DNA of 64,000 nt from Mactromeris polynyma. Lineage: Eukaryota; Mollusca; Bivalvia; Venerida; Mactridae. Below the pieces are notes generated by a model that made no database searches, was not told the DNA's origin, and worked only from the letters and a program-made list of their open reading frames with translations. Shown piece by piece: positions 7,593 to 61,600 of the stretch (within the stretch, counting starts at the first letter, position 1; every line of letters begins with the position of its first letter). The DNA lies in contig JASFXZ010000004.1 of NCBI GenBank assembly GCA_032209605.1, positions 37,110,401 to 37,174,400 on the forward strand, in the 5' to 3' direction. The position numbers and the translations under genes were made by a program.

Positions 7593-8089
7593 CACAGGTT
7601 GTATAACTTTATTGACTAATTTTTCTATAATAATGTAACATTCATGCGCTTGCATGACGCGCATTCTAATAATCTAACAGACTGCTAATTAGCTTAGGTA
7701 ACTATTAGTGTGCCATCACATGTTTGCTCTACTATACATATTTGTATTTGTGAAGTATATGTATCTGATGAAATTCGTATCAAAAGAAAAATCCATATCG
7801 AACAATCAACATCTTCTACTGTTGGACTTAAACGTAAATTCTAATATGACTATGTTTCGCACTAGTTCCGCAGTTTTTGTTATAAAATAGAAAATTGCTT
7901 TTTTATCATTATGAATTTAGACTTCCTTTGATGTGTCAAAATTTTGTACTCCAGTCCAAATTCGCTAATCTTTTGTAGGTCTTTTACCAAGTATTATGTC
8001 CGTTTTATATTATTGTATTTAGATTCTTCGACAATAAATCTCATTTTGAGAAATTAAAATAAACAAGAAAAGCCAAGTTTCAAATGTTT

Positions 8090-9201
8090 TTTATTCTATA
8101 CACTTACAAATACAGAGATCAATCAGAAAAGATCAGGTCGTGACCTTCTCGTCATATGTTGATAGAAATAAAATATAATAAAATTAAACAGAATAAAGTC
8201 AAGTGCGTTCAGCAAAACAAAAGAATATCCATCACTCAGTCTGCTTCATGGTTCGCCTGACAGAAGACGACAGCTTTGAATTACAGAAGTTTATAAAGAA
8301 GCACCATTACACTTGATGTCAACGTTATCATATAGCCACTTCCGGTGAACGTTGCCGCTGTGTTTCCGGTATTTTAGTAAATTAAACATTTAATATGACA
8401 TACAATATCCATATATGACGTGCGCAGTTTCCGTTTATCAACAATTATCAAAGACATGTAATTGTTAATCAAAACGGATCTGATTATTGCTTTAAATGAA
8501 AAATAAAAGCAGCTGCATCAGACCATTTAAAAAACAAATACTATCCATTAAGAGATTAATATATACCCATTGTATAAGAAACACAATACACATAAATGTA
8601 GAAAATATTAAATAACGGTTCTGTTTTTTTTTAATGTCTGACGTTGCCGCTTAAAATGCCGACTTTAATGAAGTTTCCGGATAAAATGTCGACTTTTATT
8701 TAATTTTGGAAAGCATTTTCTAATTCTATATCTATTTACTTGATCTTGTAGACATGCTTCAAAGATCGAAACATGTTTGTAATTCTTAACACTAATATAT
8801 ATTTAATGAATAACAATAAACAAATCAATGAATACAGAACAGATGAAATGTACTTTAAAGCCATCATACAAGCCTAAAGTGTGCGGTTTGTCATTTTCAT
8901 AAAAGGTTAGAAAGTCTCTATTAAAGCATATATGCAAATTACAGATTAATCTTTATAGTTTTCTTTTTCTTTTTGTGCACTAAGATATTACAAAATATCT
9001 ATGATTTGTTATTTTATATTATCCAACAAATCTGTTTAATTTTATATTTAAAGAAATGGGTATTATTCATATGCGTTTAAACAAACGTAACCTACCTCCA
9101 CCACCTGGAGCGGGTGTTGTACCACCGGGGGCGGCTGTTGTAGGTGGAGCGGCTGTTGTAGGTGGAGAGGCTGTTGTAGGTGGAGCGGCTGTTGTAGGTG
9201 G
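8090..9201 (-). pseudogene. Truncated third copy of the small mucin-like GPI peptide gene (copy C)
   Basis: This is the unit 0 counterpart of genes A and B. The repeat exon survives at about 9201-9096 and codes PPTTAA-type units plus a Gly-rich end before the donor GGAG|GTAGG. The last exon survives at about 8368-8281 with the frame intact (FTGSGYMITLTSSVMVLLYK and stop). Two defects stand out: about 20 bp holding the repeat-exon acceptor are deleted, and the last-exon acceptor TGCAG has become TACCG. The signal-peptide exon and promoter are missing, because the homologous block ends near 9480. An AATAAA signal remains at 8095-8090. It is most likely non-functional. Confidence 0.65.
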
Positions 9202-9477
9202 TCCAAGAATGTACTCGTATACATGTTAAATCATCTGATATAACATGTTATCTAACATAAATATGGACCTTCTTCCGTGACTAAATTAATGTTAAGACAG
9301 GTATCTTGATCGTTATGTACATATATACACAAACGTGGAAAATCTGTCCATGACACTTATCAATAAAGAAAGTACATGAATATTCTACTGTAACTGTCGT
9401 CCACGCATTAAGATATATATTAAACCTTCTCTGACTGTTTCTGGTAAAATTAAATGTTCCTGCTGATAGCATACTTT

Positions 9478-12487: not shown

Positions 12488-12570
12488 TCAAAACGAATAC
12501 AGGATGGCCATGACGCTCGCAATCAAAATGGAGGAACTTCCGGTATCTACCTCAACAGCGGCATTTTTAC
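12488..12570 (-). pseudogene. Orphan last exon of a second-subtype GPI-peptide gene (copy E)
   Basis: On the minus strand an acceptor-like TTAAAAG precedes a phase-1 exon coding KNAAVEVDTGSSSILIASVM and then AILYSF and a stop. This matches copy D in unit 3 and shares TGS and the ASVM core with genes A and B. The upstream direction runs straight into a Tc1 remnant at 12628, and no promoter, signal-peptide exon or repeat exon is visible, so this is an orphan exon. Tail and 3' flank resemble those of gene A, including ATGACGAG followed by an AATAAA at 12370-12365. Confidence 0.5.
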
Positions 12571-12627
12571 CTTTTAAAAAATAAAATACAAAAACATACA
12601 ATACTAAAATCGAACTACGATAAAAAT

Positions 12628-15390: not shown

Positions 15391-15569
15391 AAAAACACTC
15401 ACAAATACAGAGATCAATCAGAAAAGATCAGGTCATGATCTTCTCGTCATATTTTGATAGAAATAAAATTAAATTAAACAGAATAAAGTCAAGTGCGTTC
15501 AGCAAAACAAAAGAATATCCGTCCAATAGTCTGCTTCATGGTTTGCCTGACAGAGACGACAGCTTTGAA

Positions 15570-17108
15570 TTACAGAAGTTTATAAAGAAGCACCATAACA
15601 CTTGCTGTCAACGTTATCATATAGCCACTTCCGGTGAACGTTGCCGCTGTGTTTTCTGCATTATAGTAAATTAAACATATAATATAACATAAAATATCCA
15701 TATATTACGTGCGCAGTTTCCGTTTATCAACAATTATCAAAGACATGTAATTGTTAATCGAAACGGATCTGATTATTGCTTTAAATGAAAAATAAAAGCA
15801 GCTGTATCAGACCATTCAAAAAACAAATACTATCCATTAGGAGATTAATATATACCCATTCTATAAGAAACACAATACACATAATTGTAGAAAATATTAA
15901 ATAACTATTCTGTTCTTTTTTTAATGTCTGACGTTTCCGCTTAAAATGCCGGCTTTTATTTAATTTTGGAAATTTTGGAAAGCAACATTTTCTTATTCTA
16001 TATAATATATTTACTTGATCTTGTAGACATGCTTCAAAGATTTTCATAAAAGGTTAGAAAGTCTATATTAAAGCATATTTGCAAATTGCAGATTAATCTA
16101 TATAGTTTTTTTTCTTTTTGTGCACTAAGATGTAACAAAATATATATGATTTGTTATTTAATAGTATCCAACAAATCTGTTTAATTTCATATTTAAAGAA
16201 ATGGGTACAATTCTTACACGTTGAAACAAGCGTCACCTACCTCCACCAACGGGAGCGGCTGTTGTAGCTGGAGCGGCTGTTGTAGCTGGAGCGGCTGTTG
16301 TAGCTGGAGCGGCTGTTGTAGCTGGAGCGGCTGTTGTTGTACATGCTTGTACTGTGAAAAGTCCAAGAATGTACTCGTATACATATTAAATCATCTGATA
16401 TATCGCGTTATCTAACATTAATATGGACGCTCTTCCGTGACTAAAATAATGTTAAGACAGGTATCTTGATCGTTATGTATATATATACACAAATGTGGAA
16501 AATCTGTCGATGACCCTTATCAATAAATAAAGTACATGAACATTCTACAGTAACTGTCGTCCACGCTTAAACGCAAGGAATTCAATACAAAAATTATAAT
16601 CACTGGTAACAAGGTGGCGTGACCTAGAACTAAAACGTGTATACTGTAAATCTCTAGCACAACTTTTCTACATAAGTAGTGAGATAAATTAACGTGAAAA
16701 GATGCAGAGAAGGAAAACCCAGATTCCCATATGAAAACATCCCTATACAGACCCAAACCAAAGGAAAGAATGGTACACATACACGGAGTTGACACAACAA
16801 TACGATCAAGCGGACTAGATGGTCAACGCTGAGATGGGTCACAAAATTAAGACGGAAAGGATCAGAGGACATGGACAATCACCAAAACTACAAAAAAAAG
16901 GAATTAAAAAACAAGACTATGGAACGGTAAATGATTAAACGACAAAACAACAAGATAATTGATAAAATGACCTACTGCATTGGAAATATCACTATAACTG
17001 TGGAAAATTCGGTTTTTGTGACAACGTATATAAAACAAACTCACCATGTACCACTACTAACATCACCATAAAACAAAGTCCAAGCTGCATCATTGTTGTA
17101 GTATTCAT
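15570..17108 (-). CDS. Small secreted mucin-like peptide with GPI-type tail (gene A)
   Basis: Three coding exons on the minus strand give 86 residues: 17108-17045, 16351-16241 and 15655-15570. All borders are canonical (TTTCAG|, |GTGAGT; TTCACAG|, |GTAGGT; TGCAG|) and both introns are phase 1. Residues 1-21 (MNTTTMMQLGLCFMVMLVVV, H) plus VQA form a signal peptide with an AXA-like cleavage site after residue 24. Residues 26-55 are five six-residue units of the ATTAAP type. After a short Gly segment comes FTGSG followed by 17 mostly apolar residues ending YKLL, which looks like a GPI-attachment signal with small residues G67-S68-G69. No cysteine pairs, no known domain. A non-coding exon 1 ends at 18011. 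The mature chain would be about 40 residues, rich in O-glycosylation acceptors. Paralogue: gene B. I recognise no named family; a plain membrane anchor is the alternative to GPI. Confidence 0.75.
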
Positions 17109-18010
17109 GATTGTTACTGAAATGAAAATATTGAAATGAAACGAAAGCATATACTTTGATGCTTCATCTCTCTAACATACTGGTACACAAGCTACTGACA
17201 ACTTCTCCACATTAATCAGAGGTGAAGGACTAATCGTCAGTTAAATATATTGAGGAAAACTTTGTTATGCTCGAGTTTCGACCTAAAATTACTTGATGAA
17301 TATTTAAGATCAGTTACGTATTTATAAGAATATGTCTACATAACATTCAAACATTTGTTGAACATTTGAACAACTATTATTTATTCATGCATCGTTTATC
17401 AGAAAGTGTTGGCTTGTTTAATATTTCATCAATATGACTAAAATAATTTAAGATATTTACACCTAAATATTTAGTACGTGCATTTGAATACAATATTTGA
17501 AAATGCGGCTTAATAACTATTTAAATTTACTTTCTTTTTCATTTATTTAATCAATTTGCTACAAATTCGGGTTGAAGAAACTGTGAATTATAAAAAGATC
17601 TAAATTTAATTCCTTGACCATAAAATATGTAATCCATACAATACTTTCCGAAAATAGTTAATCAAAATAATTCATACAAATACCAATTTCAATTTCAAAA
17701 CAAAACGTGTCAAAATGAAAGAAAAAGGTTCTGACGAGTATAAACAAATGCTTAAAATAGTAGTGACAATAGCCATATCAATAACTTGGTCCTCGCCAAT
17801 ATACAATAAACTTTAAAACATACAATTAAGCTATTATTCAAATGCATCGTTACAAAACATTGATAATTTCCCAACGAAACCATACATTTACCATTACCCT
17901 CCTTGTCCATTAAGATATTCTAAATACTGTGTTTAAATAAATTTCCTGATGTTACCTAACTTAATTATGAGCTGTCATTAACGTGAATTATTTTTACCAA
18001 AAAACCTTAC

Positions 18011-18071
18011 CTTTTAGATCCACACCCAATACAAGACACTGTCTCAAATGCTCATTGCGTGTTCTTTTATA
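18011..18071 (-). promoter_or_regulatory. TATA box and 5' untranslated exon 1 of gene A
   Basis: TATAAAAG runs from 18071 down to 18064. A G|GTAAGG splice donor lies after 18011, so TATA to donor is 61 bases; transcription would start near 18040. The short exon has one ATG close to the probable start, quickly stopped. The gene B module (39670-39610) has the same layout and length. Confidence 0.65.
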
Positions 18072-24789: not shown

Positions 24790-25950
24790 TGCCACCAGTT
24801 AGCATGATAGCGTTCGCGAATTAATTCGTGTTAACCACTTAATTATTACGATAATTATCTAGCTATCTAGTTAATATTCGTGATACATTTTCGGTAAGAT
24901 AAATAGCATACAACTAGAAACAGGCCTGAAAGTGCCCAGAACTGCCACCTCTTACCTTTTTATGATGTATCACACTAGATTTAAGTGGTAACACGAATCT
25001 TATCTAGTTGTCCACTTATTATGTTACTTAGTAACTCAAATTCGCGAATTTCACTTAAGATTCGTGTTACCACTTATTTATAAATGCGTTTTTGACTTCT
25101 ACATGTAAGTGGTAACACGAATCTTATCTAGTTGACGACTTATTATGTTACTTAGTAACTCAAATTCGCGAATTTCACTTAAGATTCGTGTTACCACTTG
25201 TTCATTTTTGGCTTCTAGATGTAAGTGGTAACACGAATCTTATCTAGTTGTCCACTTATTATGTTACTTAGTAACTCAAATTCGCGAATTTCACTTAAGA
25301 TTCGTGTTACCACTAATTCATTTTTGGCTTCTAGATGTAAGTGGTAACACGAATCTTATCTAGTTGACGACTTATTATGTTACTTAGTAACTCAAATTCG
25401 CGAATTTCACTTAAGATTCGTGTTACCACTTATTCATTTTTGGCTTCTAGATGTAAGTGGTAACACGAATCTTATCTAGTTGTCCACTTATTATGTTACT
25501 TAGTAACTCAAATTCGCGAATTTCACTTAAGATTCGTGTTACCACTTATTTATAAATACATGTTTGGCTTCTAGATTTAAGTGGTAGCACGAATCTTATC
25601 TAGTTGACCACTTATTATGTTACTTAGTAACTCAAATTCGCGAATTTCACTTAAGATTCGTGTTACCACTTGTTCATTTTTGGCTTCTAGATGTAAGTGG
25701 TAACACGAATCTTATCTAGTTGACCACTTATTATGTTACTTAGTAACTCAAATTCGCGAATTTCACTTAAGATTCGTGTTACCACTTATTCATTTATGGC
25801 TTCTAGATGTAAGTGGTAACACGAATCTTATCTAGTTGACCACTTATTATGTTACTTAATAACTCAAATTCGCGAATTTCACTTAAGATTCGTGTTACCA
25901 CTTATTTATAAATACATTTGTGGCTTCTAGATTTAAGTGGTAAGTCGTGT
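24790..25950. repeat. Tandem array of a 116/124-bp hairpin repeat
   Basis: Eight full units begin at 24983, 25107, 25223, 25339, 25455, 25579, 25695 and 25811, and a partial ninth at 25935. In each unit the arm AAGTGGTAACACGAATCTTA is followed after about 53 bases by its exact reverse complement. The loop holds two smaller palindromes, GTTACTTAGTAAC and AATTCGCGAATT. Units with an extra TATAAATA-like stretch in the linker are 124 long. Decayed related sequence lies at 24790-24980. No coding content. It resembles the tandem cores reported for some non-autonomous elements of bivalves, but I cannot identify flanking ends. Confidence 0.9.
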
Positions 25951-30142: not shown

Positions 30143-32750
30143 TATGTTCCTGTCATTTGATAAAATCATGGAGGAAATCTCAGTCATTGACGAAACACGA
30201 TACAAATATTGTTTTTTTTATTCATTGTGAAACTTAATTAAATAATCAAAATATAAATTTCACTCTGAACCGGTATTGTAGTTATTTGTTTTATAAGTAA
30301 TGAACGGATATATTAAAATGTTATGTATACTATTATCTACAATACTTCTTACAAGAAATGACAGATACAATGATAACAAAAATTCCACAGTGAATCGTTA
30401 GTATGAAAAAATTCAAATAAAATTCTGAAGAGATATATTGAATACTATTAACGATTCTTCAATGAATTTTGCGTGAATATTTCATTAACTTGTTTTGTCG
30501 ACATATTATTCTGCTATTCAATGCAGAATATTTTGTGTATTTTGTATAATATTTTGTATATTGTTAAAAGTTTATTATCTATTTGGATATATAATTTAAT
30601 AAGAATATGTTTTGTAGTCATTTGAATAGATGTACAATAAAAACATAACTTCAAATTTAATAAATTAATTCGCTGTTAATAAAGAAGCCACTCATGCAAT
30701 GAAATTGCATTTCTTTTATGTAAATTATAAAAATTTAAGGAGAAATATTCGAAATAATAATTATATAATTATAGTGTAATCAAAATAGATTTTTCACTCT
30801 GAATCAATATATATTATTGAATTTCAGTTTTACAGTTACAAATGGAATTCATACTGCGCTATCTATAACATGTCACTCATAACACAATGTCACACAACAA
30901 GTAAATATAATATATTATAAAATTTACGCTGTTAAATACATTTTGTAAATTGGACCCGTCCCGCCAGTCGATACGTAGTGCTTTGTACTAAATTACACTG
31001 TTACATTAATTATGAAAAAGAAAATTAATATTCGTATGAAATGTCATTACCTGTTCCTTTAGACTTCTATGCAAATCTGTCACTTTATACAGTGTTCAGA
31101 TTGTTTCCTGCCCATTTTTGGTCTATTAAGGCCAGTTGTCTTGACTTGTCCTGTGATCTTTTCCATCCATTAATTCCCACCTCCCCATCCCTTACTATCC
31201 ACTTTGATTCTCCTAGTTATTCCTTGTGGTCTGCTAGGCCATTCCTTGCGCCTCAGTTCCTTAATATGTGTACCGTTTGACCTCCTTTAGTACCTTATGT
31301 TTTGTGGATTGTTGTTTTTTCCGGAGATCTGCGTGGGGAGGCATTGTCTTATGTATGTGGCTTTCCCTGTAGTTACGTATTCTCTCTCCTTTTTCAACAT
31401 TGGTCTTCGCGAAAAATGTTCGATCAAGGCCATTTATACAAAAATCAGTCGTCATAACAACGTGGAGTAAACATAGTAGTACATGTGGTAGGATCATGTC
31501 GATTTTGATTAATCGGTCTATCAGGTTCTGTCCGCAGCTACGTCCCATCAACAACCAATATATGTCAGTTGGAGAGTTTTTGTATTGTATCTTATGATAA
31601 ATTTCTCTACAAGGGTACGATAAAACCGACGGAAGCTTCGTGTGTTAAAATAAATGATAGCCGATGAAACGACGTACGAGGGTTGATCCAGAATTACGTG
31701 GATTTGTTTAATAAATGAAACATATTTCTACATAGAACATTTATATTTCATATACAGTATATTTAACATATCATATACAAATTTAGAAAGTTTCACAGCA
31801 ATACATACACACTTAGCTGAACTACAGTGAATAAAAAACATATGGGTGAACGCGACCGGCGCAGTCCAACTACTTCCATGACGTTGCCTTAACAAACGTC
31901 AAATTTTTTCAAAGCATTTTCCCCGAATCATTAACACACTTTTCGTGACGTTTAATCCACTTGGAATGAACGTCCGAGTACTACTCTCTAGTGAATGTGG
32001 AGATAACATTGTTCGCATATACTTGCAGTTCATGGAGGGAATTAAACCGATGTCGTTTTTTTAATTCACACAGATTGTGAAATTAATTATTTCAACTAGT
32101 ATTAATCACTGTCGACCATTGCTTTCTTGGTTAATTACTGATGACTCGCCCCTATTTCAGGATTTATTACGTTCGGACTGGGACCAATATATCTATATTG
32201 TTCGGGGTTCGGCTTGGACCAATGCGGAATTCGAACCTACTACCTTCGGATTAGGAGTCAGAAAAGTTTTTGTAAATAACATTCATATAAAATAACCAGG
32301 ATTTGCACTACTGTAGAATTAATAACTTTGTGTACTTATCATTATGGTAGTAATACAGCAACTAACTATCGAACTGGCATGCATTTATATTTTATTCATG
32401 ATATATGATTTTATATATGATATTTAAACATGATGATAATAAAAGAGAGACAACTCTAGAAACTTGTATTTGTTATTAGTTTAAAGAGTTAACCATTACT
32501 AGAGCAACTACCTTTTTTCAGTGATTAAAAGAAAGATTAATTGTTCCTAAATTTATAAACAAAATGTTTCCACACATCTGGCACTTGTAATGATAAAAGA
32601 ATACATTGCTCTCAATGAATACAATATCAGGCTAAATATTATCAGAACAAACTAGCATATTTAGCTTACGAATGTAACATTTTAGATGTACGAACACGAG
32701 TTTAATTTACTCTCAATCAAATAGATCTAATTAATTGGAAATGTCAACGC
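30140..32750. repeat. Block W, unit 2
   Basis: 30140-30930 matches 49600-50400; 30930-32750 matches 1-2160. The minus-strand TATA/exon-1 module (TATA near 31442, donor near 31050) is split by an R1 insertion at about 31061-31393, as in unit 0. Confidence 0.75.
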
Positions 32751-36205: not shown

Positions 36206-36211
36206 TTTATT
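36206..36211 (-). terminator. Poly(A) signal of gene B
   Basis: AATAAA on the minus strand, about 185 bases past the gene B stop codon, matching the spacing in gene A. Confidence 0.6.
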
Positions 36212-36393
36212 TAAAACACACACAAGGGAGATCAATCAGAAAAGATCAGGTCATGACCTTTTCGTCATATTTTGATAGAAGTAAAACGGAATAAAATAAA
36301 ACAGAATAAAGTCAAGTGCGTTCAGCAAAACAAAAGAATATCCATCCCTTAGTCTGCTTCATGGTTCGCCTGACAGAAGACGACAACTTTGAA

Positions 36394-38690
36394 TTACAGG
36401 AGTTGATAAAGAAGCGCCATGACGCTTGCTGTCAACGTTATGTAGCCACTTCCGGTGAATGTTACCGCTGTGCCTCCTGAGTAATATTAAATTGAACATT
36501 TGATATACCATACAATATCCATATATGACATTCGCAATTTCCTCTTGTCAACAAATATCAGACATGATAGAAGCCAAAATCACTAGTAGCGTTTTTCGAA
36601 TCGGATTTGATTATTGCTTTAAATGAATAATAAAAGCAGCTGTATCAGACCACTTAAAAAACACATCCACGAGGAGATGAATATGTATATGAAAAGATTA
36701 AGTAACTATTCTGTTTTTAAATATATATACAGATCAAATGCAAGATATTTAAAGCTATCATACACTTAAATACAAGTCTAAAGTATGCGGTTTGTCATTT
36801 GCATAAAATGTAAGAGAATCTAGATTAAAGCTGATTTTGAAATTACAGATTAATTTGTACATTTTCTCTTTTTTCTTTTTGTGCACTTTAGAGATAATTA
36901 TACTTTTATGAACTTTTGATTTAATATTATCCAACCGATCAGATTAAATTTCAAATTTAAGAAATGGGTACAATTCTTACATATTGAAACAAACGTCACC
37001 TACCTCCACCTCCGGGAGCGGATGCTGTACCACCTGTAGCGGATGTTGTACCACCTGTAGCGGATGTTGTACCACCTGTAGCGGATGTTGTACTACTTGT
37101 AGCGGCTTGTACTGTGAAAAGTGCAAGAATGTACTCGTATACATGTTAAATTATCTGATATATCTTGTTATCTAACAGAAATATGGATGCTCTTCCGTTA
37201 CTAAAATAACGTTAAGACAGATATTTTGGTCGGTATGCACATAAAACTATCCATGACACTTATCAATAAAGAACGTATTTGAAGATTCCATGGTAACTGC
37301 CGTCCAACCAAAAACACAACAAATTGAAACTTGTATTGATTCAATATGTACTATAATGCGAATAAAAATTGAAAATTACAAACAAAATTACAGTTCTAAA
37401 AAAAGTATGTCCATTTTTATATGTAAACTTCCTTCATGAAGAACGTTAGCCGAACAAAAATTACTAGTAAATGGAAAATTAACATTTCGATTCACTTCTC
37501 ATTTTGTAATATTTCTTGTTAAGGAAAGCATCTTTATATTATAAAATCAGATACGTAGAATAAAGTAATGTAAGAAACAGCTACAAGAAAATCAAAGAAT
37601 ATGTTTTTTTTACATTTATGCATATAGCATTTAAGAAATGGGCAAATTTCGTTTCAAAATTAAAATAGTGTTAATAGCAGATGACCTAAACTAAATTGAT
37701 GAATCAATGGGGCATCAAAGTGTCTAAAACAATTTATAAACATTATCTAACACAGAATATATCAAACTTTCAGAGACTTTTACCGTCCCGTAACAGCGCA
37801 ATTTCATTTTGAACAGAGTGCACATTTCTCTGAGACAAAGTAACACTTCTAAGTGGTTTTGTTTGCTTTTTCACAAAAGTGTAAGTTTTTTCTGGAAAAT
37901 TTAACTTAGTGTTGTTGAAAAGCATAATAATATTGACTGTCCAACAAAATCATGGTAATGTTTGGTCTCTTAATAATTTAATTATTTATTTTTAATAAAT
38001 TGTCACTGAATTGCCTCTCTTCATGAAATATTTCAGGTTTTTTAATTATTGCAATTATTTGTTTTTAGAAGTTAAGGCAATTTCGGATAGGATTATATAA
38101 TTTGAAAAAATTATAAAAGTAATATTTTAATATTAGATTTTGTAACAAGTTTTATAATTTGCTTATTGAGTCATACCGTACAGTGGAAAGACGTATATTC
38201 ATTTATGGGTGAAATACCTTATACAAAAGTTATAATTACAAGATGGTGTGACCTAGAACTAAAACTACTGTAAAGCTCATGCACGACTGTCTACATAAAG
38301 TTGTTAGATAAATTAACGTTAAAAGATGCAGGGCAGGGAAAACCAGAATACCATATGAAAACATCCCCATACAGACCCAGACAAAAGGAAATAATGAGAC
38401 ACATACATGGAGATGAAACTAAACGCTGGAAGACGGGAAGGATCAGGACATTGACAATAAACAAAAGTACAAAATAAAGGAATTCAAAAACATGACTATG
38501 GAACGATAAATGATTACACGACAAAACAACAAGAGAATTAATACAATGACCTACAGCATTGGAATAAATTGTATTATTACTGTGGAAAATTAGGTTTTTG
38601 TGACAACGTGTATAAAACAAACTTACCATGTACCACTACTAACATCACCATGAAACAAAATCCAAGCTGCATCATTGTTGTAGTATTCAT
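36394..38690 (-). CDS. Small secreted mucin-like peptide with GPI-type tail (gene B)
   Basis: Three coding exons give 84 residues: 38690-38627, 37111-37004 and 36476-36394, with donors |GTAAGT and |GTAGGT, acceptors TTTCAG|, TTCACAG| and CTCAG|, and phase-1 introns as in gene A. The signal peptide differs from A at one residue (L11F). The repeat exon has changed unit: 21-base repeats coding TTSATGG instead of 18-base ATTAAP. The tail (FTGSGYITLTASVMALLYQL, L, stop) lacks one Met relative to A by an in-frame three-base loss. In the aligned last exon five changes are silent third-base changes and the replacements are few (A/V, V/A, K/Q plus two at the variable start), which suggests protein-level constraint. 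The intron before the repeat exon carries an extra segment homologous to 21220-21630. Function unknown. Confidence 0.75.
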
Positions 38691-39609
38691 GATTGTAGCT
38701 GAAATGAAAAGATTGCAATGAAACGAAATCATATACATTGATGCTTCATCTCTCTAACATAATAGTACACAAGCTGCACAAGCTACTGACAACTTCTCCA
38801 CATTAATCAGAGGTGAAGAACTAATCTTCAGTCAAATATATTGAGGAAAACTTTGTATTGCTCGAGTTTCGATCTAAAATTACTTGATGAATATTTAAGA
38901 TAAGTTACGTATTTATAAGAATATGTCTACATAACACTCAAACATTTGTTGAACATAACTATTATTTATTTCATGCATCGTTTATCATAAAGTGTTGGAT
39001 TGTTCAATATTTCATTAATATGACTAAAATAATTTAAGATATTTACACATTAATATTTAGTACGTGCATTTAAATACAATATTTTAAAATGAAGCCTAAT
39101 GATTATTTAGCTTTTTTTCCATTGTCATTTATTTATTCCAACTGCTTACAAATTCGGGTTGAAGAAACTGTGAATTATGACAATATCTAAATTTAATTCC
39201 TTAACCATGAAACAAGTAATCCATACTATACTTTCTGAAAATAATTCATACAAATACCAATTTCAATACAAAAAGTGTCAAAATATAAGAAAAAGGTTCT
39301 GACGAGTATAAACAAATGTTTAAAATAGTAGTGACAATAGCCATATTAACGACTATTATTTAAATGCATAGTCACAAAACATTGATATTTTCCCAACGAA
39401 CTAGCATTGACTATTTAGATAAATGAAAATAAACAAAATTAAACAACACTGTTATACAATTACCGAGAGAAAATCCATAGAGTTACCATTTCCCTGCTTG
39501 TCCATTAATATATTTGAAATATTGTGTTTAAATAAATTTCCTGATGCTACTTTTCCTAATTATGAGTTGTCACAAAACGTGAATTATTTTTGCCAAAGAA
39601 AACCCTTAC

Positions 39610-39670
39610 CTTTTCGATCCACAACCAATACAAGACACTGTTTCAAATTCTCAGTGCGTGATCTTTTATA
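39610..39670 (-). promoter_or_regulatory. TATA box and 5' untranslated exon 1 of gene B
   Basis: TATAAAAG runs from 39670 to 39663; the donor G|GTAAGG follows 39610, giving the same 61-base spacing as gene A. The exon has no ATG here, supporting a purely untranslated first exon. Confidence 0.65.
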
Positions 39671-40239: not shown

Positions 40240-41338
40240 ACCCTTGAAGATGACCCGAAAGAGTGGGGACAGTGGGAGATGGACGAACAGTTGAAACATA
40301 TAGTAAATGAGACTAACAATTGGACAGAGAGGGGAGATATTGTGACAGTGAGGTGCACAGGGAGAGAAAACAGATATTGAATGAGATTGAGAGATGGACA
40401 GAGAGGGGGAGAGATGATGATTGATATATAGAGATGGACGCAGAGGGGATACAGATATTAGATTAAGAGGTCGACACAGTGGGGCAGACAGATGATGAAT
40501 AAGATTGAGAGATGGACAGATGGACAGGGAAAAGACAGATAGTGAGTGACATAGATGAATGTACAAAGATAGGAGATAGGCAGTGTATGGGATTGATAGA
40601 TGGACAACGAGGAGTAACAGAAAGTGAAAATAGATTGAAAGATGGACACCGAGAGGGAAATAGATAATGAGTCACATGGTGAAATGGGCAGAGAGGGGAG
40701 ACAGATTGTAAATGACCTGAAAGAATGAACAGAGAGCGAGAGATATAGTGAGTGACCTGCATAACTTGACAGAGAGCGAGGGAGATAGTGAGTGACCTGA
40801 AGAAATGGACAGAGAGGAAGAGAGATAGTGAGTGACATGAAGAAATGGACAGAGAGAGATAGTGAATGACCTGAAGAAATGGACAGAGAGGGAGAGAGAT
40901 AGTGAGTGACATGAAGAAAAGAAAAGAGAGGAAGAGAGATAGTGAGTGACATGAAGAAATGGACAGAGAGGGAGTGAGATAGTGAATGACCTGAAGAAAT
41001 GGACAGAGAGGAAGAGAGATAGTGAGTGACATGAAGAAATGGACAGAGACGGAGAGATATGAGAGATAGTGGATGACCTGAAAAATGGACTGAAAGGGAG
41101 TGAGATAGTAAGTGACATGAAGAAAAGGACAGAGAGGGAGAGAGATAGTGAATGACCTGAAGAAATGGACAGAGATGGAGACATATAGTGAGTGAACTGA
41201 AGAGATTGACAGAGAGGGGAGACAGATATAGTGAGTGACCTGAAGGAATGGACAAAGATGTGTGACAAACAGCGACTGGTATTGCGAGATGGACAACATA
41301 TAGTGAAAAGAGGTGAACAGGGTGCGGATAGAGATAGT
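40240..41338. repeat. GA-rich minisatellite, about 40-bp unit
   Basis: Regular in 40680-41200 with a unit like GACAGAGAGGGAGAGAGATA plus GTGAGTGACATGAAGAAATG, more irregular to the left. Minus-strand ORFs of 278, 229 and 410 codons lie across it in different frames; they are by-products of a stop-poor repeat. Confidence 0.85.
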
Positions 41339-42840
41339 CTATGAGATGGGGAGATGAACATGGAGGGATAGGGATAGTGTTTGCGATGGTGAGATGAACA
41401 GGGCGCGGATAGAGATAGTCTATGAGATGGGGAGATGAACAGGGCGCGGATAGAGATAGTGTTTGAGATGGTGAAATGAACGGGGTGGAGGATAGAGATA
41501 GTCTATGAGATGGGGAGATGAACAGGGCGGGGATATAGATAGTGTATGAGATGGTGAGATGAACGGGGTGGAGGATAGAGATAGTGTTTGAGATGGTGAG
41601 ATGAACAAGGCGCGAATAGAGATAGTCTATGAGATGGTGAGATGAACAAGGCGCGGATAGAGATAGTCTATGAGATGGTGAGATGAACAAGGCGCGGTTA
41701 GAGATAGTCTATGAGATTGGGAGATGAACATAGAGGGATAGAGATAGTGTTTGAGATGGTGAGATGAACAGGGCGTGTATAAAGATAGTGATTGAGATGA
41801 TGAGATGAACGGGGTGGATGATAGATATAGTGTATGAGATGGTGAGATGAACAGGGCGGGGATAGAGATATTGTATGAGATGGTGAGATGAGCAGGGCGG
41901 TGATAAAGATAATGTATGAGATGGTGAGGTAACAAGGCGCGGATAGAGATTGTGTATCAGGTGGTGAGATGAACAGGGCGGGGATAGAGATAGTGTATGA
42001 GATGGTGAGATGAACAGGGTGAGGATAGAGATAGTGTATGATATGGTGAGATGAACAGGGCGCGGATAGAGATTGTGTATCAGATGGTGAGATGAACAGG
42101 GCGGGGATAGAGATAGTGTTTGAGATGGTGACATGAACGGGGCGGGGGATAGAGATAGTGTTTGAGATGGTGACATGAACGGGGCGGGGGATAGAGATAG
42201 TGTATGAGATGGTGAGATGAACAGGGTGAGGATAGAGATAGTGTATGATATGGTGAGATGAACAGGGCGGAGATAGAGATAGTGTTTGAGATGGTGAGAT
42301 GAACAGGGCGGGGATATAGATAGTGTATGAGATGGTGACATGAACGGGGCGGGGGATAGAGATAGTGATTGAGACGGTGAGATGAACAGGGCGGGGATAG
42401 AGATAGTGTATGAGATGGTGAGATGAACAGGGTGAGGATAGAGAGTGTGTATGATATGGTGAGATGAACGGGGCGGGAGATAGAGATAGTGTTTGAGATG
42501 GTGTGATGAACAGGGCGGGGGATAGAGATAGTGTTTGAGATGGTGAGATGAACAGGGCGGGGGATAGATATAGTGTATTTGATGGTGAGATGAACGGGGC
42601 GGGGGATAGAGATAGTGCTTGAGATGGTGAGATGAACAGGGCGGGGATAGAGATAGTGTATGAGATGGTGAGATGAACAGGGCGGGGCATAGACATAGTG
42701 TATGAGATGGTGAGATGAACAGGGTGGGGGATAAAGATAGTGTATTTGATGGAGAGATGAACGGGGCGGGGGATAGAGATAGTGCTTGAGATGGTGAGAT
42801 GAACAGGGCGGGGGATAGATATAGTGCTTGAGATGGTGAG
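41339..42840. repeat. GATAGAGATAGTG minisatellite, 41/42-bp unit
   Basis: About 36 copies of a unit like GATAGAGATAGTGTTTGAGA plus TGGTGAGATGAACAGGGCGG(GG). Unit length varies by one base, so translation frames rotate from unit to unit; the minus strand is nevertheless open over 300-400 codons in more than one frame. Related arrays are at 20461-20560, 24420-24560 and 44713-45090. Confidence 0.9.
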
Positions 42841-44579: not shown

Positions 44580-45090
44580 ATCTCCGGACCCCACTTAAGG
44601 GAGGGGGATACATCCTCCCGTACCTACCCCCACTGAGCCTCAAGTGCGATCGATGGCATCTGTCCTCATGTTCGCCCCCCACCCCCATTCTGGAATTTCT
44701 GGATCCGGGCCTGCGGGGATAGAGATAGTGTATGAGATGGTGAGATGAACAGGGCGGGGATAGAGATAGTCTATAAGATGGGGAGATGAACAGGGCGCGG
44801 ATAGAGATAGTGTTTGAGATGGTGAGATGAACGAGGTGGAGGATAGAGATAGTCTATGAGATGGGGAGATGAGCAGGGCGGGGATAGAGATAGTGTATGA
44901 GATGTTGAAATGAACAGGGCGGGGATAGAGATAGTGTTTGAGATGATGAGAGGAACTGACAGGGATAGAGATAGTGTTTGAGATAGTGATAGGAACAGGG
45001 ATGAGATAGAGATAGTGTTTGAGATGGTAAGGGGAACTAAGAGGGTATCAAAATAGTGTATGAGATGGTGAGATGAAGAGTGAGTGAATA
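44580..45090. repeat. Transposon end plus minisatellite
   Basis: 44580-44712 repeats the transposon end of 20310-20460 (TCTGGATCCGGGCC). It is joined at 44713 to about nine copies of the GATAGAGATAGTG unit, which decay towards 45090. Confidence 0.6.
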
Positions 45091-48706: not shown

Positions 48707-48786
48707 TCAAAACGAAACCAGGATGGCCATGACGCTCGCAATCAGAATGGAGGCACTTCCGGTATACACCACAGCGGCATTCTTAC
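48707..48786 (-). CDS. Last exon of a second-subtype GPI-peptide gene (copy D, partial)
   Basis: A strong acceptor (CCATTTTTTTTCAG|) precedes a phase-1 exon coding KNAAVVYTGSASILIASVMA, ILVSF and a stop. It aligns with gene A and B tails through TGS, hydrophobic residues and ASVM, and the phase is the same. The TATA/exon-1 module at 50545-50485 lies in the right place and orientation 1.7 kb upstream. I could not find the signal-peptide or repeat exon between them, so the gene may be broken, or those exons may be too diverged to see by eye. Confidence 0.5.
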
Positions 48787-50484: not shown

Positions 50485-50545
50485 CTGTTCCTTTAGAATT
50501 CAGCATTGGTCTTCGCGAAAAATGTTCGATTCATGGCCATTTATA
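50485..50545 (-). promoter_or_regulatory. TATA box and exon-1 module of copy D
   Basis: TATAAAT at 50545-50539 and a CAG|GTAATG donor after 50485 give a 61-base spacing, identical to genes A and B although the sequence between differs. The position upstream of the copy D last exon suits a first exon. Confidence 0.4.
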
Positions 50546-51116
50546 CAAAAATATGTCGTCATAACAACTTGGAAACACAGTAATAGTAGAATCATCTCGA
50601 TTTTGATTAATCGGTCTATCGGGAATCTCTCCGCATGTACGTCCCTTCAAACACCAATATCTGTCAGTTTTAGAGTTTTTTGTAATGTCTCTTTTGATAA
50701 ATTTCTCGACAAGGGTTCAAAAATCCCGACGGGAGGTTCGTATGTTAAAATGATAGCCGATGACACTACGGATTAAAAATTTGTGGTTTGTAGTAGGCCG
50801 AAACGTGTGAACTGATTTTTGTTTTGATTTTTTAAAATTCATATCGATTGTAAAAACAATATTTTCAACTAGTATTAACCACTGTCGACCACTGCTTCAT
50901 TGGTTACTTACTAGTGACTCGAACTTATTTCAGGATTTGTGACGTTCAGGCTGGGACCAATATATAGATATTGTTCGGGGTTCGGCTTGGACCAATGCGG
51001 AATTCGAACATACTACCTTCGGATCAGGAATCAGGAAATCTATCCCTCGACCATTATATCTGCCAAAATTCATACTGTTTGGTCACAACTTGAATGTAAC
51101 AAATGATTTATATAGA

Positions 51117-55690: not shown

Positions 55691-58600
55691 ATTACGTTTA
55701 TGGTCGGAGTATGGTTGTAATGGATTCTGCAAACGATCGAATGCGTCTCAAGGATAAAATCGTGGCAAATGTTGCAAAAGCAGTCAAAAGTGTAAGTGTT
55801 AAAGTGACCCGGGTTCGGATTTGTAGTGTTTTTATTTGAAATGACGTCGTGTTGAATATAGCTTATAAGCCTACTATATTATCATCACATTCTGTTTATG
55901 TAGTAATGTACTTGAAACTTTTACTAATCGGATTGATTCATGTTGAAAATGTGTCTATGGAGATTTGAAGTTGAACTTGACCAAATGAAACAAAATTAGT
56001 TTGGTGTTTTTGCAACACCCTTCCGCGATGTATGAATAGAATGTATGCTTGTTTTGCCAATATCATGGGGAAAAGTGCACCCATTGAGGGCCTCGAACCG
56101 ACAGTCCCCTAAACACTTATGGCGCTCTACGGTCTACCAATTGAGCCAACCAGGCTGTCCAACAACTACATTCCTCCACCTTCCAGCATTGGAGCTCATA
56201 CCAGCATAAAAGTATAGGCAGTGGCTACAATTATGTGTCCGTAATCTTGGAATTATGGAAGTGCGCTCAATGTGGGGCCTGAACCCATGACCCCCTAAAC
56301 ACTAATATAAGGCGCTCTAATGGCAGTTGTCTGATTGGAACCCCCTTTAAAAGCCTTCTACTTCTAGATAGATTGGTTGTAATTGTTATTTATTGATTGT
56401 AATAATGTGGTGGCATGCGGTCAGACAACACTCGGTTAGCCCAGTCAGTAGAGCATGTTGCTGGGGTTGAGGGGATCATGGGTTTTGTTCAGGTTGTTGT
56501 GCTGTCTGGACAGTTTTTTATATCTTCTGCTTTTAAGTAGGATCTTAGGCTGTCATCATAATAATTGTTTTCATTTAACCACCTACGAGTCTTATTTATC
56601 TGAAATATAACGAGAATAATGTCAAGCAATGTTATTTTGAATACCAAAAGATAAAAGGCGACAACCAAATACTTTTGAAAATGGCAGAGGTCTCTTTACT
56701 TTGTAAAGGGAGACAACTGTATATGAAATTGCCAGTGCAGACTGTTAACAGGCTGGTGCCTTTACACAGATCTAGATGTATATGTTAGCAGCAGCAATAA
56801 ATTATGACTGGTATTAACTTACTTGAAAAAGTTCTAAATATGCCCTTCTTTTACGATAACAAATGTATGCAACCTAAACATTGTTTTTATGTACAATTTA
56901 CAGATCCAAGAGCTTCAGATGTTGTCAGGATCAAAGACAGTTATACTTGGTAATTATGACTGGCAGTGCCATAGACTGTGTGAACATCTTGATCACACTT
57001 TACTACATGGGTAAGTATGAAACAATAATATAGTTGTGTATAAAAAAAGTAAACTTTAAGAAGCCGTGTGTTTTATAAAGTTTGAGGAATGGTCATTCGT
57101 CAGCTTTTTAGCAAGTCTGTTAGGTTTGCTCAGTAGCTAGAGTGTTCATCTGTCTATCTAGAGATATATGGGTAGTACAGTGAGCAAGTTGTGTGTTCTC
57201 TCTGACAATTCAATTGAAGAAAATAAATCCGAAAGTCTTTATCCTCCACTTTTATTCATTTAAAAACTTGTATTAGCTTATTGAAACCTGGGTTTGTACT
57301 GGTTTGCAAACCAGAAATATGGATTTTGTCAACTGTCCACCACATATGACAGCAACGCTTTTGAAAATTGATGTAAGAGTTTCAAATCAATCAATCGGTC
57401 TATAAAGTTCAGTGACTTTAATTTTTATTTAGACTTCCCTTAAATTGTTTATTATTCATAAGATTTTCTTTGACTCAGGTTACGACATGTCACACCGGGA
57501 TACTGGAAGATTGTGTCCGAATTCACACACAAAGATTGCACCAAAGAGATAAAGAGAATGAGAAATGTGACAACAGATCTTGGTAGAGGTAAACAAAGAC
57601 AAGTTCTATGTTAATTATTTTTTAAGGAGAGGCAGGGTTTTCCCTAGAATTTTTTGGCTGGGGGTCCTTGGACTCTCGTGTTTGACAAATTGGGGGTCCT
57701 TAGTAAATATTAAGGGACCCAGATATATGCAGTTTATACTTGACAAAGGTTTATTTTAGGGGTCCCAGGAATGCACATTAAGTGGAAAATGGGAGTCCAT
57801 AGAAAGAAAAGGGAGTCAGGGACTCAATATTTCTGCATCAGGGAAATCCCTAGAGAGGCCTAGCGGTTGATGGAGGGAGCGCCTGACTCCTGGTCTGAAG
57901 GTCATGGTTTGCATCCCACCTTGGGAACCAGGGACTTCACAATTCCTCAATAAGGCACAAGCTGTTGGTTAGTTATCTAGGAAGCAGTCATCGAGAATGA
58001 TTTATATAAGTTGTAGTAACTTGTTTCACAATCAATGTATTATAAATAAGTTAAAACCGCAAGATGCATTTCTGCCTTATAAAAGTACTTATTTTCCACA
58101 TGATTATTAAGGGGTACTTTTATTTTTAAGACATTAAATACATAACTGGTGTCATTTGTTTTATGCCATACTGAGTCGTAAATATTACTTAAATATAATG
58201 GATTATACATGTTTGCTTTAGGATATGTGCATATATCATTTAAATGTGAGATTACTGGGTTTATTTTGGGAAGATGACCCATACCCATCAAATTGGGAAT
58301 TTTAACATGTAAATCTTAGAAATTAGGAAAAATGTCCGGAAATTACATATTAAAATAATATTAAAGGATGTAGTGATTAATTAATCAACAATTGCTATAT
58401 ATATAAACTGCCTGTGAGAATTTATTTGCCCCAAATTTGCCATAAAAAAGGGCTGAATCAAGTGTGATTTTGTCCCATTCTATGTTTTTAGGTAGAGCTT
58501 GGCTGTTTATGGCGCTGAATGAATGTTTACTGGAAAGTTACCTCAGATGCTATCAACAGAACGATAATCTTGTGGAAGACTTTTATGTTAGGGATGCACT

Positions 58601-61600
58601 TGTACGAGATCAAGATGTAAGGACATTTTTTGTATTTTCTCTTTATTCAAGTCTAGAATGTTTCAGACTTGTCCTCAATATTGGCTTTATAGCCTGTTGT
58701 TACTGGTCTAGATTTGTAAAAAATCAAGGAGAAAATCCATGGGTGATTGATGGTAACCTACCGACAAATCCTTTTCAAATTGGTCACTTCTTATATTGTC
58801 ATATCTTTCAAAATAAGTGCAGTGCAATAGAAACTAACAAATTTGTTTTACTTCATTCTACCCATACCTCATTTTCTGAAATGAAAAAGTCACACATGAT
58901 TTTAGAAACACATAGATCTTTTAAAAGATTTCTGTTGAAATTAATGAAATACAGACATGTAGGGTGACCAATTAGAAAAATATTTCCGTGTATTTATTGG
59001 CCACCATTGTACTGCTCAGCTGCCCCCATACCTGCACCCAAAGTTTTCAGGCCTACCTTCTTTGTGAATTGTTGATTGTTTTATTATTTTCTTTACTATC
59101 AGAATTATGATTTTCTTTAATATCAGAATCCGAGCAAAACTACTCTTAGTCGTTACAATCAAAGATCATTTTCTCTTGAACTCTTTCTGAAGATGTTAAG
59201 TTATAATTCAATTGTGATGAAATATGGCATTATAGGAAGAATTGCAGGTGCCAGGAAATAATTGTTGTCATGTTTTCTTGTTGACTAATTCCCTACATGA
59301 ATTGTATAGTTTTAAGTGTCCTTAAGTTTTATGTATGAGAAGTCGTAGCTTTTCAGACTATGCTTTTAAATGTTTTATAGAGAAGTTTTTTAATTGATCT
59401 CAAATTAGTGTGCTTGTTTTTTACTGTTCTTCTTAATAACTTAAGAGTAAGATTTATGTACATGTCTATATATAACATTATTCTGTCTGATTTCAGAAAT
59501 TCGATATTTTGCTGACCATTATATCTGGCCTTGAGAGTATGGAATTTCACCTTGAATGCGTAAGTTTCCATGTATGATGTGTACCTGTTTATTTTTCATT
59601 CTTCTCCTAGCCTACCTGGTTAGCTCAGTGGTAAGAGTACTAGGCTGTTAGCCGGATGTCTGGGTTAGATAGGTTATGTCTTTCATTGACATTCGGCTGC
59701 AGTTATTTGTCCTCCACCTCTGATGTATGTGGGGGAAGTTGTCAGCTGATTGTGGATGGGCAATTTGTACAGGTTGATCATTTATTTCTGGAAAATTGGT
59801 TAGGTCGACTGATCGCTGTATATAACTGAATATTGCTGAAATACAGAGTTGACCCTATTAAAACAAACAAACTGCTCCAAAAAATCTATCTTGGTAGAAG
59901 TTTAGATAGTCCATTGGTATTGTTTCAGATTGCTTTCTGAGCCTTTTCATTGAAATATACCCATCAGTTATCAAGAAAACTATAATCTAACTACAAAAAT
60001 CGAACCTTTGACTTCTTTATCTTAATGATCTTATTTTATCCATAATTTTAATGTAAACATCTTCAGGGGTTCCACTAGGGGCTGAATCTCAAGGGTCATA
60101 AATGATAATTTTTGGCGGGACTTTTCCCACATTATAGCCAAAATTTAGAGAAAAATTTACCCTTCAGCCAGAATCCCAAGGGTCAAAATGAGACCTTTTG
60201 GAAAATCCAGGGGTCAAATGTTGCACTCTATGGTCAAATTGGAACTCCTTATCTTACTTTGGTACTTGACCTCATAGAATGTGTGTACCTTGATGATGGT
60301 TGGGCTGATATAGTTGTAATTGCCTGAAAAGATAATAAAACTTCATTGACTTTGTCATCCCCAGTTGCTTATCGTCAAGGACATTTGTTCAATTTTCAGT
60401 TAATAAATTTTTTTTAAGAAAATTCTATAATAATCGAAGCATTCATTTATTCATTGCAGTGGTCTTAATGAAGGAAATGTTTTAATTTATTTTATTACTT
60501 TTTATTTAACTGCTGTGTGTTTATTTAGGACATGCCATACCTAGACTTGTGTGTCTACCCTCCAAAAAGTAAACAGATGACCAATGTGGAGTCCACAGTA
60601 GACTTTGACAGCTTATCAGTTTGTAGCATGGAGAGTCTTCATATACCTTCCAAACCTTTACCACAGGTATGTGCTTTATTGTGAACAGTGAAAACTTGAT
60701 AATGAGACCCCCCTTGGTTGGTGAGGTCAGTCTTTGTTGTAATGTTGACTGAATATCGAGTTAAGTATGGAAGAAAGATTTAAAACTGGTTCAAGAAAAT
60801 ATGGTTTTCTTACAAGGTGGTCTTATTTTCAAGGTGGTCTTTAAGTGTGGTTTCACTGTATTCATGTCATCAGTGTAATGCATTAAGATAAACATATTGA
60901 AGCTGCCTGTATCTTGTTCGAGTTTGTGCTGAGTTATGTAAGCTCCCTTGTGTTTGAAACATTCAATGTTTATTTGAATCACTCTTCAGTCTGTTTTATT
61001 GGAAAAAATAGTCGACAGGGCCCAGGGATATCAGTCACTTAGTTTATCAAAGGTTTTTGCTAGTTGTTGTAGTTTTATACTTGTATTTGCTGTTTAATTG
61101 TTTCAAAATGCAGGGGTGTCACTAATTCTTGAAGTAGAAGGGGAAATCACCAAAAGTAGACAGTGTCTCTGGGGTACTCCCTTTAATTTATGATCATTTA
61201 TACAAGAAAAGTAGATTGTAGCTGGGTGATGATGCTTAAGTTACTTGATAATTTCGCCAGCTCCCTGCTCATATTGACACCCCTGAAAATGGACATTTGG
61301 ATTAATCTTGTGTTAATTTATTGCTAGACCAAAAGAAAGAAAGAATAACTCTTGTGTTTCAGCTGCCAAGTTACAGATAATGCTCTGGAACTTTAAAATG
61401 CTGAACATTTCTCTGTATTAATGTTAACTGCAGAGGCTGGAAGCTCCTAGACTCCCATCAATATTATCTTACGTTCAAGTTCTCAAGAAATATGTATGTT
61501 CCCTGTACTTATTTAATGAAAAGTACTTGGTATACTTCTGATATCATTGGTTCCTCCACCTCTGATTCACGTTGGGAAGTTGTTAGTAATGTTCATAATA

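Follow-up and report, generated by a model that had tools for sequence, protein, structure and literature searches.

The minus strand of the window, by which we mean the whole 64-kb stretch of DNA analysed here, holds the following parts of a probable spliced gene (gene A):

18064..18071, minus strand: TATA box, TATAAAAG, conserved at 39670-39663 in copy C (see below)
18011..18045, minus strand: 5' untranslated exon 1, its 5' end placed from the position of the TATA box; the donor GTAAGG at 18010 is conserved in copy C
18010-17117, minus strand: intron 1 (894 nt), in the 5'UTR, with donor GTAAGG and end TTTCATTTCAG
17045..17116, minus strand: exon 2, a short 5'UTR and the signal-peptide coding sequence (ATG at 17108), with a phase-1 donor
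17044-16352, minus strand: intron 2 (693 nt), GTGAGT...TTTTCACAG
16241..16351, minus strand: exon 3, the TTAAPA repeat exon, with a repeat unit of 18 nt and lying between two phase-1 introns
16240-15656, minus strand: intron 3 (585 nt), GTAGGT...AATGCAG
15570..15655, minus strand: coding part of exon 4, an anchor-like hydrophobic tail and the stop codon TAA
15385..15569, minus strand: 3'UTR with AATAAA at 15390-15385; 169/183 aligned bases (92.3%) are the same in copy C

The initial annotation had read a TATA box, 5' exon, signal peptide, Thr/Ala/Pro repeat, tail, stop codon and AATAAA in this order on the minus strand, and each of these elements was found where it had been placed. Translation of the window's own exons also reproduced the 86-residue spliced product, MNTTTMMQLGLCFMVMLVVVHVQACTTTAAPATTAAPATTAAPATTAAPATTAAPVGGENTAATFTGSGYMITLTASVMVLLYKLL. 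All three introns have GT...AG ends, as read directly and by script. Phase 1, which had been claimed for the introns throughout, applies to the two coding-sequence introns, because intron 1 is located in the 5'UTR. The predicted signal peptide, MNTTTMMQLGLCFMVMLVVVHVQA, carries V at -3 and A at -1, and a Cys follows directly after VQA; its n-region has no basic residue, and its hydrophobic core was picked up by the scan described below. S, T, P, A and G make up 33 of the 36 residues of the repeat exon, and this 36-residue core, which holds 11 Thr and 5 Pro, contains 4.8 copies of the 18-nt unit with 100% matches. The tail contains a Lys near its end (YKLL). The coding exons comprise 21 to 37 codons, and with a largest coding exon of this size the earlier description of the gene as hidden is fair as regards scans for long ORFs. 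Spliced gene finders aided by RNA-seq should detect it.

The same annotation proposed a family, and indeed the 64 kb contain A and C as intact copies, B as a decayed one, and D and E as diverged tail exons:

36206..39670, minus strand: intact paralogue C, in which every signal and phase of A is kept
39670-39663, minus strand: TATA box of copy C
38698-38627, minus strand: exon 2 of copy C with the signal peptide (ATG at 38690)
37111-37004, minus strand: exon 3 of copy C with TTSATGG repeats
36476-36394, minus strand: coding part of exon 4 of copy C
36211-36206, minus strand: AATAAA of copy C
8087..9411, minus strand: decayed copy B, with a repeat remnant (9201-9096) without an acceptor and a 28-residue tail (8367-8281) whose acceptor AG is lost, as judged by eye against A
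48707..48786, minus strand: diverged tail exon D, GKNAAVVYTGSASILIASVMAILVSF, with a phase-1 acceptor
12488..12570, minus strand: diverged tail exon E, GKNAAVEVDTGSSSILIASVMAILYSF, a relative of D

The product of copy C, MNTTTMMQLGFCFMVMLVVVHVQAATSSTTSATGGTTSATGGTTSATGGTASAPGGGGGTAVTFTGSGYITLTASVMALLYQLL, has 84 residues. Its repeat exon consists of S/T/P/A/G in 34 of 35 positions, with 4.2 copies of a 21-nt unit (95% matches), and its mature stretch holds 11 Thr and 6 Ser. Among the matches listed by tblastn within the window there are five related tails, all on the minus strand. Those of D and E score weakly against the A tail (E of 0.06 and 0.16 in tblastn), a link that is helped by a short match in the 3'UTR (E about 0.001). 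No signal exon of copy B was found in the 64-kb window, nor were upstream exons of D and E when these were looked for there. The homology that the D and E loci share starts at 12617, just upstream of the tail exon, and therefore E may be a tail exon standing alone, and perhaps D as well. A, B and C sit inside direct duplications that run on downstream of each gene (self-comparison, matches of at least 250 bases).

Other repeated sequences occur in the window, whose G+C content is 34.5%. Another reading frame that recurs in the window and includes a signal-like stretch (MILPHVLLCLLHVVMTTDFCING) is present on the minus strand at 342-803 and 31261-31644, within a 1.35-kb duplication (1-1337 versus 30919-32265, 96% identity), and as a relic at 50499-50770; this copy near 50.6 kb is frame-shifted by eye. 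It was considered as the signal exon of D and rejected, as no phase-1 donor was seen by eye and a stop follows. Large purine-rich tandem arrays of 40-41 bp with up to about 37 copies occupy 40642-42840, about 1 kb upstream of gene C, and 44713-45077; the stop-free frames of up to 435 aa in these arrays look like by-products of the repeat. A 116-bp tandem array with about 7 copies lies at 24975-25943, and two 263-bp tandem copies at 62640-63168 (100% identical by the repeat finder, 99.6% by self-comparison) possibly represent a recent duplication or an assembly artefact. Finally, a frame at 58446-58967 on the plus strand encodes a RUN domain (Pfam PF02759, 40.4 bits versus a cut-off of 22, E 4e-10) and probably belongs, as one exon, to an ordinary animal gene. 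This frame, the spliced genes and the G+C content are all compatible with an animal source.

The pattern of gene A is not due to chance. Both strands of the 64 kb were scanned, using no homology, for exons combining an acceptor, an ATG, a hydrophobic core and a phase-1 donor (alternative ATGs within an exon counting as one), and only the signal exons of A (17108) and C (38690) were retrieved. A corresponding scan, again using no homology, asked for phase-1 exons of at least 18 codons in which S/T/P/A/G reach at least 75%; it found three places: the repeat exons of A and C and the remnant in B. In 40 dinucleotide shuffles the mean number of signal exons was 0.2, with two or more in 1/40 compared to two in the real window. 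For repeat exons the mean was 0.0, with two or more in 0/40 compared to four in the real window, a count made in coarser 100-base bins than the three places listed. The thresholds of both scans were chosen after gene A had been seen; these numbers thus describe rarity and are no blind test, and the confirmation comes from copy C.

Comparison of A and C allowed us to ask which parts of the gene have been retained. Identical positions amount to 68/72 in exon 2, 753/869 aligned columns in intron 1, 524/619 in intron 2 (the stretch 38199-37351 of C being left out of the alignment), 374/503 in intron 3 and 71/82 in the coding part of exon 4. Exon 3 falls below every intron with 66/108. It differs between the two genes in its repeat unit, while its ends are alike (TACAAGC... 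and ...GGTGGAG/GTAGGTGACG). Without correction for several tests, exon 2 is more similar than introns 1 and 2 together (1277/1488; p=0.035), and both the coding part of exon 4 (p=0.017) and the 3'UTR (p=6.6e-8) exceed intron 3. Recent duplication accounts for part of this exon identity, because introns 1 and 2 reach 85-87% identity as well, and intron 1 contains the top-scoring single window of 60 columns (98%) along with many of the 25 best ones. The coding sequence has only two indels, each of 3 nt, in exon 3 and exon 4, respectively; those in the introns range from 1 to 44 nt. In exons 2 and 4, 6 synonymous differences in 31.7 sites compare with 7 nonsynonymous ones in 109.3 (p=0.07; omitting exon 3, the final codon and one codon without a counterpart), and for the D and E tails the values are 4 in 20 and 4 in 58 (p=0.19; one unmatched codon omitted), so that neither synonymous excess is significant alone and the two pooled give p=0.013. 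A and B differ by 1 synonymous and 2 nonsynonymous changes, which says nothing on selection. We regard these counts as moderate evidence for protein-level constraint on the signal and the tail, a pattern from which the repeat exon departs.

The initial annotation had further put the upper limit for ORFs at about 37 codons. This holds for the coding exons, but intron 2 of gene A contains a stop-to-stop frame of 100 aa (16520-16822, minus strand), and intron 2 of C has one of 114 aa. The two frames share a 40-residue stretch in which 26/40 residues and 99/120 bases are alike. A coding role of this frame was discarded, since 3 synonymous differences in 26.0 sites versus 18 nonsynonymous ones in 94.0 give no sign of it, and so was a retained-intron reading, in which by eye a stop would follow within about 18 codons past exon 2 in both A and C.

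Some features of the region would be consistent with decay, in the sense that A and C are now non-functional duplicates of a former gene or a duplicated relic. Both acceptors and the 5' half are gone from B, upstream exons could not be found for D and E, and the region as a whole is a set of segmental duplications. A and C, however, keep every splice site, the frame and the phase despite about 13-26% intron divergence, and we consider it highly improbable that they are decaying remnants. The 3'UTRs of A, B and C each contain an ATGACGA box and a 10-bp hairpin (15421-15450, about 8126-8155 and 36239-36268, respectively, all on the minus strand). The stem differences among these three copies are A/G changes that keep the pairing through G-U, and z values against single-base shuffles are -2.6, -1.7 and -1.9. 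D and E have the same ATGACGA box followed by a weak hairpin (z of 0.4 and -1.0). The box together with the hairpin may be a regulatory element.

Aligning the tails of A, C, D and E shows that TGS and ASVM are invariant, as is an A at the putative omega+2 position, with N or G two residues before it. When we applied a simple GPI rule of our own, the limits of which were set after the tails had been seen, to the 302 phase-1 terminal frames of the window, three passed, and all of them are family tails (C, D and E); in copy C the chosen triplet lies two residues past the aligned one. A and B were tested individually and did not pass. A just misses the rule, because it has three hydrophobic spacer residues where two are allowed (checked by hand). 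These results favour the GPI reading and do not settle it. Most likely, the family carries a removable C-terminal anchor signal of the GPI type. The main rival is that the same spliced gene retains its tail as a short transmembrane segment, which would yield a single-pass membrane mucin stub. The hydrophobic character of the tail, the Lys of A and the failure of A under the simple rule would all fit such a protein, yet the hydrophobic stretch reaches the last residue and leaves no cytoplasmic tail, its about 15-17 residues are short for a membrane span, and D and E combine an omega-like NAA triplet with uncharged last 15 residues. We therefore regard a transmembrane stub as unlikely. Alternatively, the tail might be removed by proteolysis to release a diffusible peptide with an antimicrobial, antifreeze-like or matrix glycopeptide function, as the short Thr/Ala/Pro-rich repeats resemble those of secreted glycopeptides. 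From TFTGSGY on (21 codons), however, the tail exons of A and C differ by 5 synonymous versus 2 nonsynonymous changes, yet their repeat composition is not conserved, and a secreted peptide appears very unlikely to us. The more specific idea of an antifreeze glycopeptide was dropped, because the repeats differ between the copies.

Searches for relatives outside the window were made with the whole product and with a repeat-masked alignment of four rows. Among the best 7988 candidates by shared words, the whole product gave 67 protein matches with E up to 10 (best 7.5e-3), which were rejected as low-complexity on the basis of their labels rather than of individual alignments. The masked alignment had 2132 candidates in the protein search, none with an E of 10 or less. 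In viral contigs at least 600 stretches matched a pattern and two loci passed tblastn, but these cover residues 23-56 and 24-56 only, that is, the repeat, and were set aside as chance similarity (L001 and L002, respectively). The single tail pattern of the masked alignment retrieved 17 viral stretches and 6 from prokaryote genomes, none of which was confirmed. Six matches to solved structures (best E 0.59) were likewise rejected, and Rfam gave no match at the gathering cut-off. The best Pfam match, DUF6476 (E 0.002, 18.5 bits versus a cut-off of 24), spans residues 4-53 and thus the signal and the repeats. The missing outside relatives mean little, because the collections searched appear to contain little animal sequence. 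A limited literature search retrieved no paper on mucin-like GPI-anchored peptides of Mytilus and no description of the A/C family. This is probably a real small gene family of a known kind for which no sequence relative was found in the collections searched.

Very short, heavily glycosylated and GPI-anchored peptides made from small precursors, like those proposed here, include mammalian CD52 and CD24. These are not known to have Thr/Ala/Pro tandem repeats, unlike A. The small surface mucins of Trypanosoma cruzi, a multigene family, likewise consist of a signal, a Thr-rich repeat core and a GPI signal; their genes belong to a protist and are not known to contain introns, in which they differ from the spliced A and C. 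By analogy, the family might work like the apomucins of Echinococcus and like CD52 and CD24. The cyst-wall apomucins of E. granulosus and E. multilocularis are reported to form a small family, the members of which have a signal peptide and a core dominated by Thr and share a predicted GPI signal at the C-terminus (PMC3510090). In a putative-orthologue pair from the two species, signal and C-terminus are more than 95% identical and the rest about 63% (PMC3510090). A signal and tail that are kept around a diverged core resemble, by description, the situation in the paralogues A and C, and the Cys after VQA in A may be compared to an unpaired Cys that two of the apomucins carry in their N-terminal extension (PMC3510090). 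In contrast, no tandem repeats but basic core residues are reported for the top three expressed apomucins, whereas the repeats here are near-perfect and the core measures about 36 aa (PMC3510090). The SmPoMuc family of Schistosoma mansoni is reported to be a clustered multigene family with a 22-aa signal peptide followed by variable tandem repeats (PMC2576457). It resembles the family in its clustering, in the order of signal and variable repeats, in small exons of about 60 bp and in the presence of truncated copies, but differs in having 15 exons, many of them after the repeats, and in that every repeat unit forms a separate exon of 27 bp within a 1-kb genomic repeat (PMC2576457).

In summary of the mechanism, we consider it probable that the locus is a tandemly duplicated family of animal type for very short mucin-like peptides, GPI-anchored by a predicted tail signal. 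The four exons would be spliced to an mRNA of about 0.5 kb, as their sequence signals suggest, and the precursor of 86 (A) or 84 (C) aa would enter the secretory pathway through its signal peptide. The latter would be cut after VQA, the V codon of which is completed by splicing, and the mature stretch of about 36 residues would receive O-glycans on Thr (A) or on Thr and Ser (C). The hydrophobic tail would be exchanged for a GPI anchor, the likeliest site being close to the aligned N/G-T/A-A triplet, and the end product would be a short sugar-bearing stub at the cell surface. Copies would diversify through replacement of the repeat unit (TTAAPA in A, TTSATGG in C), with the signal and tail exons being retained.

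If expressed, these genes, with a largest coding exon of 37 codons and a low-complexity core, would belong to a class that is easily lost to annotation and homology searches. The A/C pair, in which the mucin core appears to have been exchanged and the signal and anchor held, is recent enough (introns 74-87% identical) to trace the steps, and the repeat-swap reading would gain weight given a second species and transcripts. A more far-reaching interpretation, which we offer as a tentative and rather doubtful one, is that of an animal surface-coat family specific to one lineage. Its signal and anchor exons would be fixed cassettes, whereas the exposed repeat exon would be exchanged as a whole from one paralogue to its neighbour (from the six-residue TTAAPA to the seven-residue TTSATGG), and tandem duplication and decay would keep the copy number in flux. 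If this were true, the family would provide a diversifying glycocalyx, directed against pathogens or serving self-recognition.
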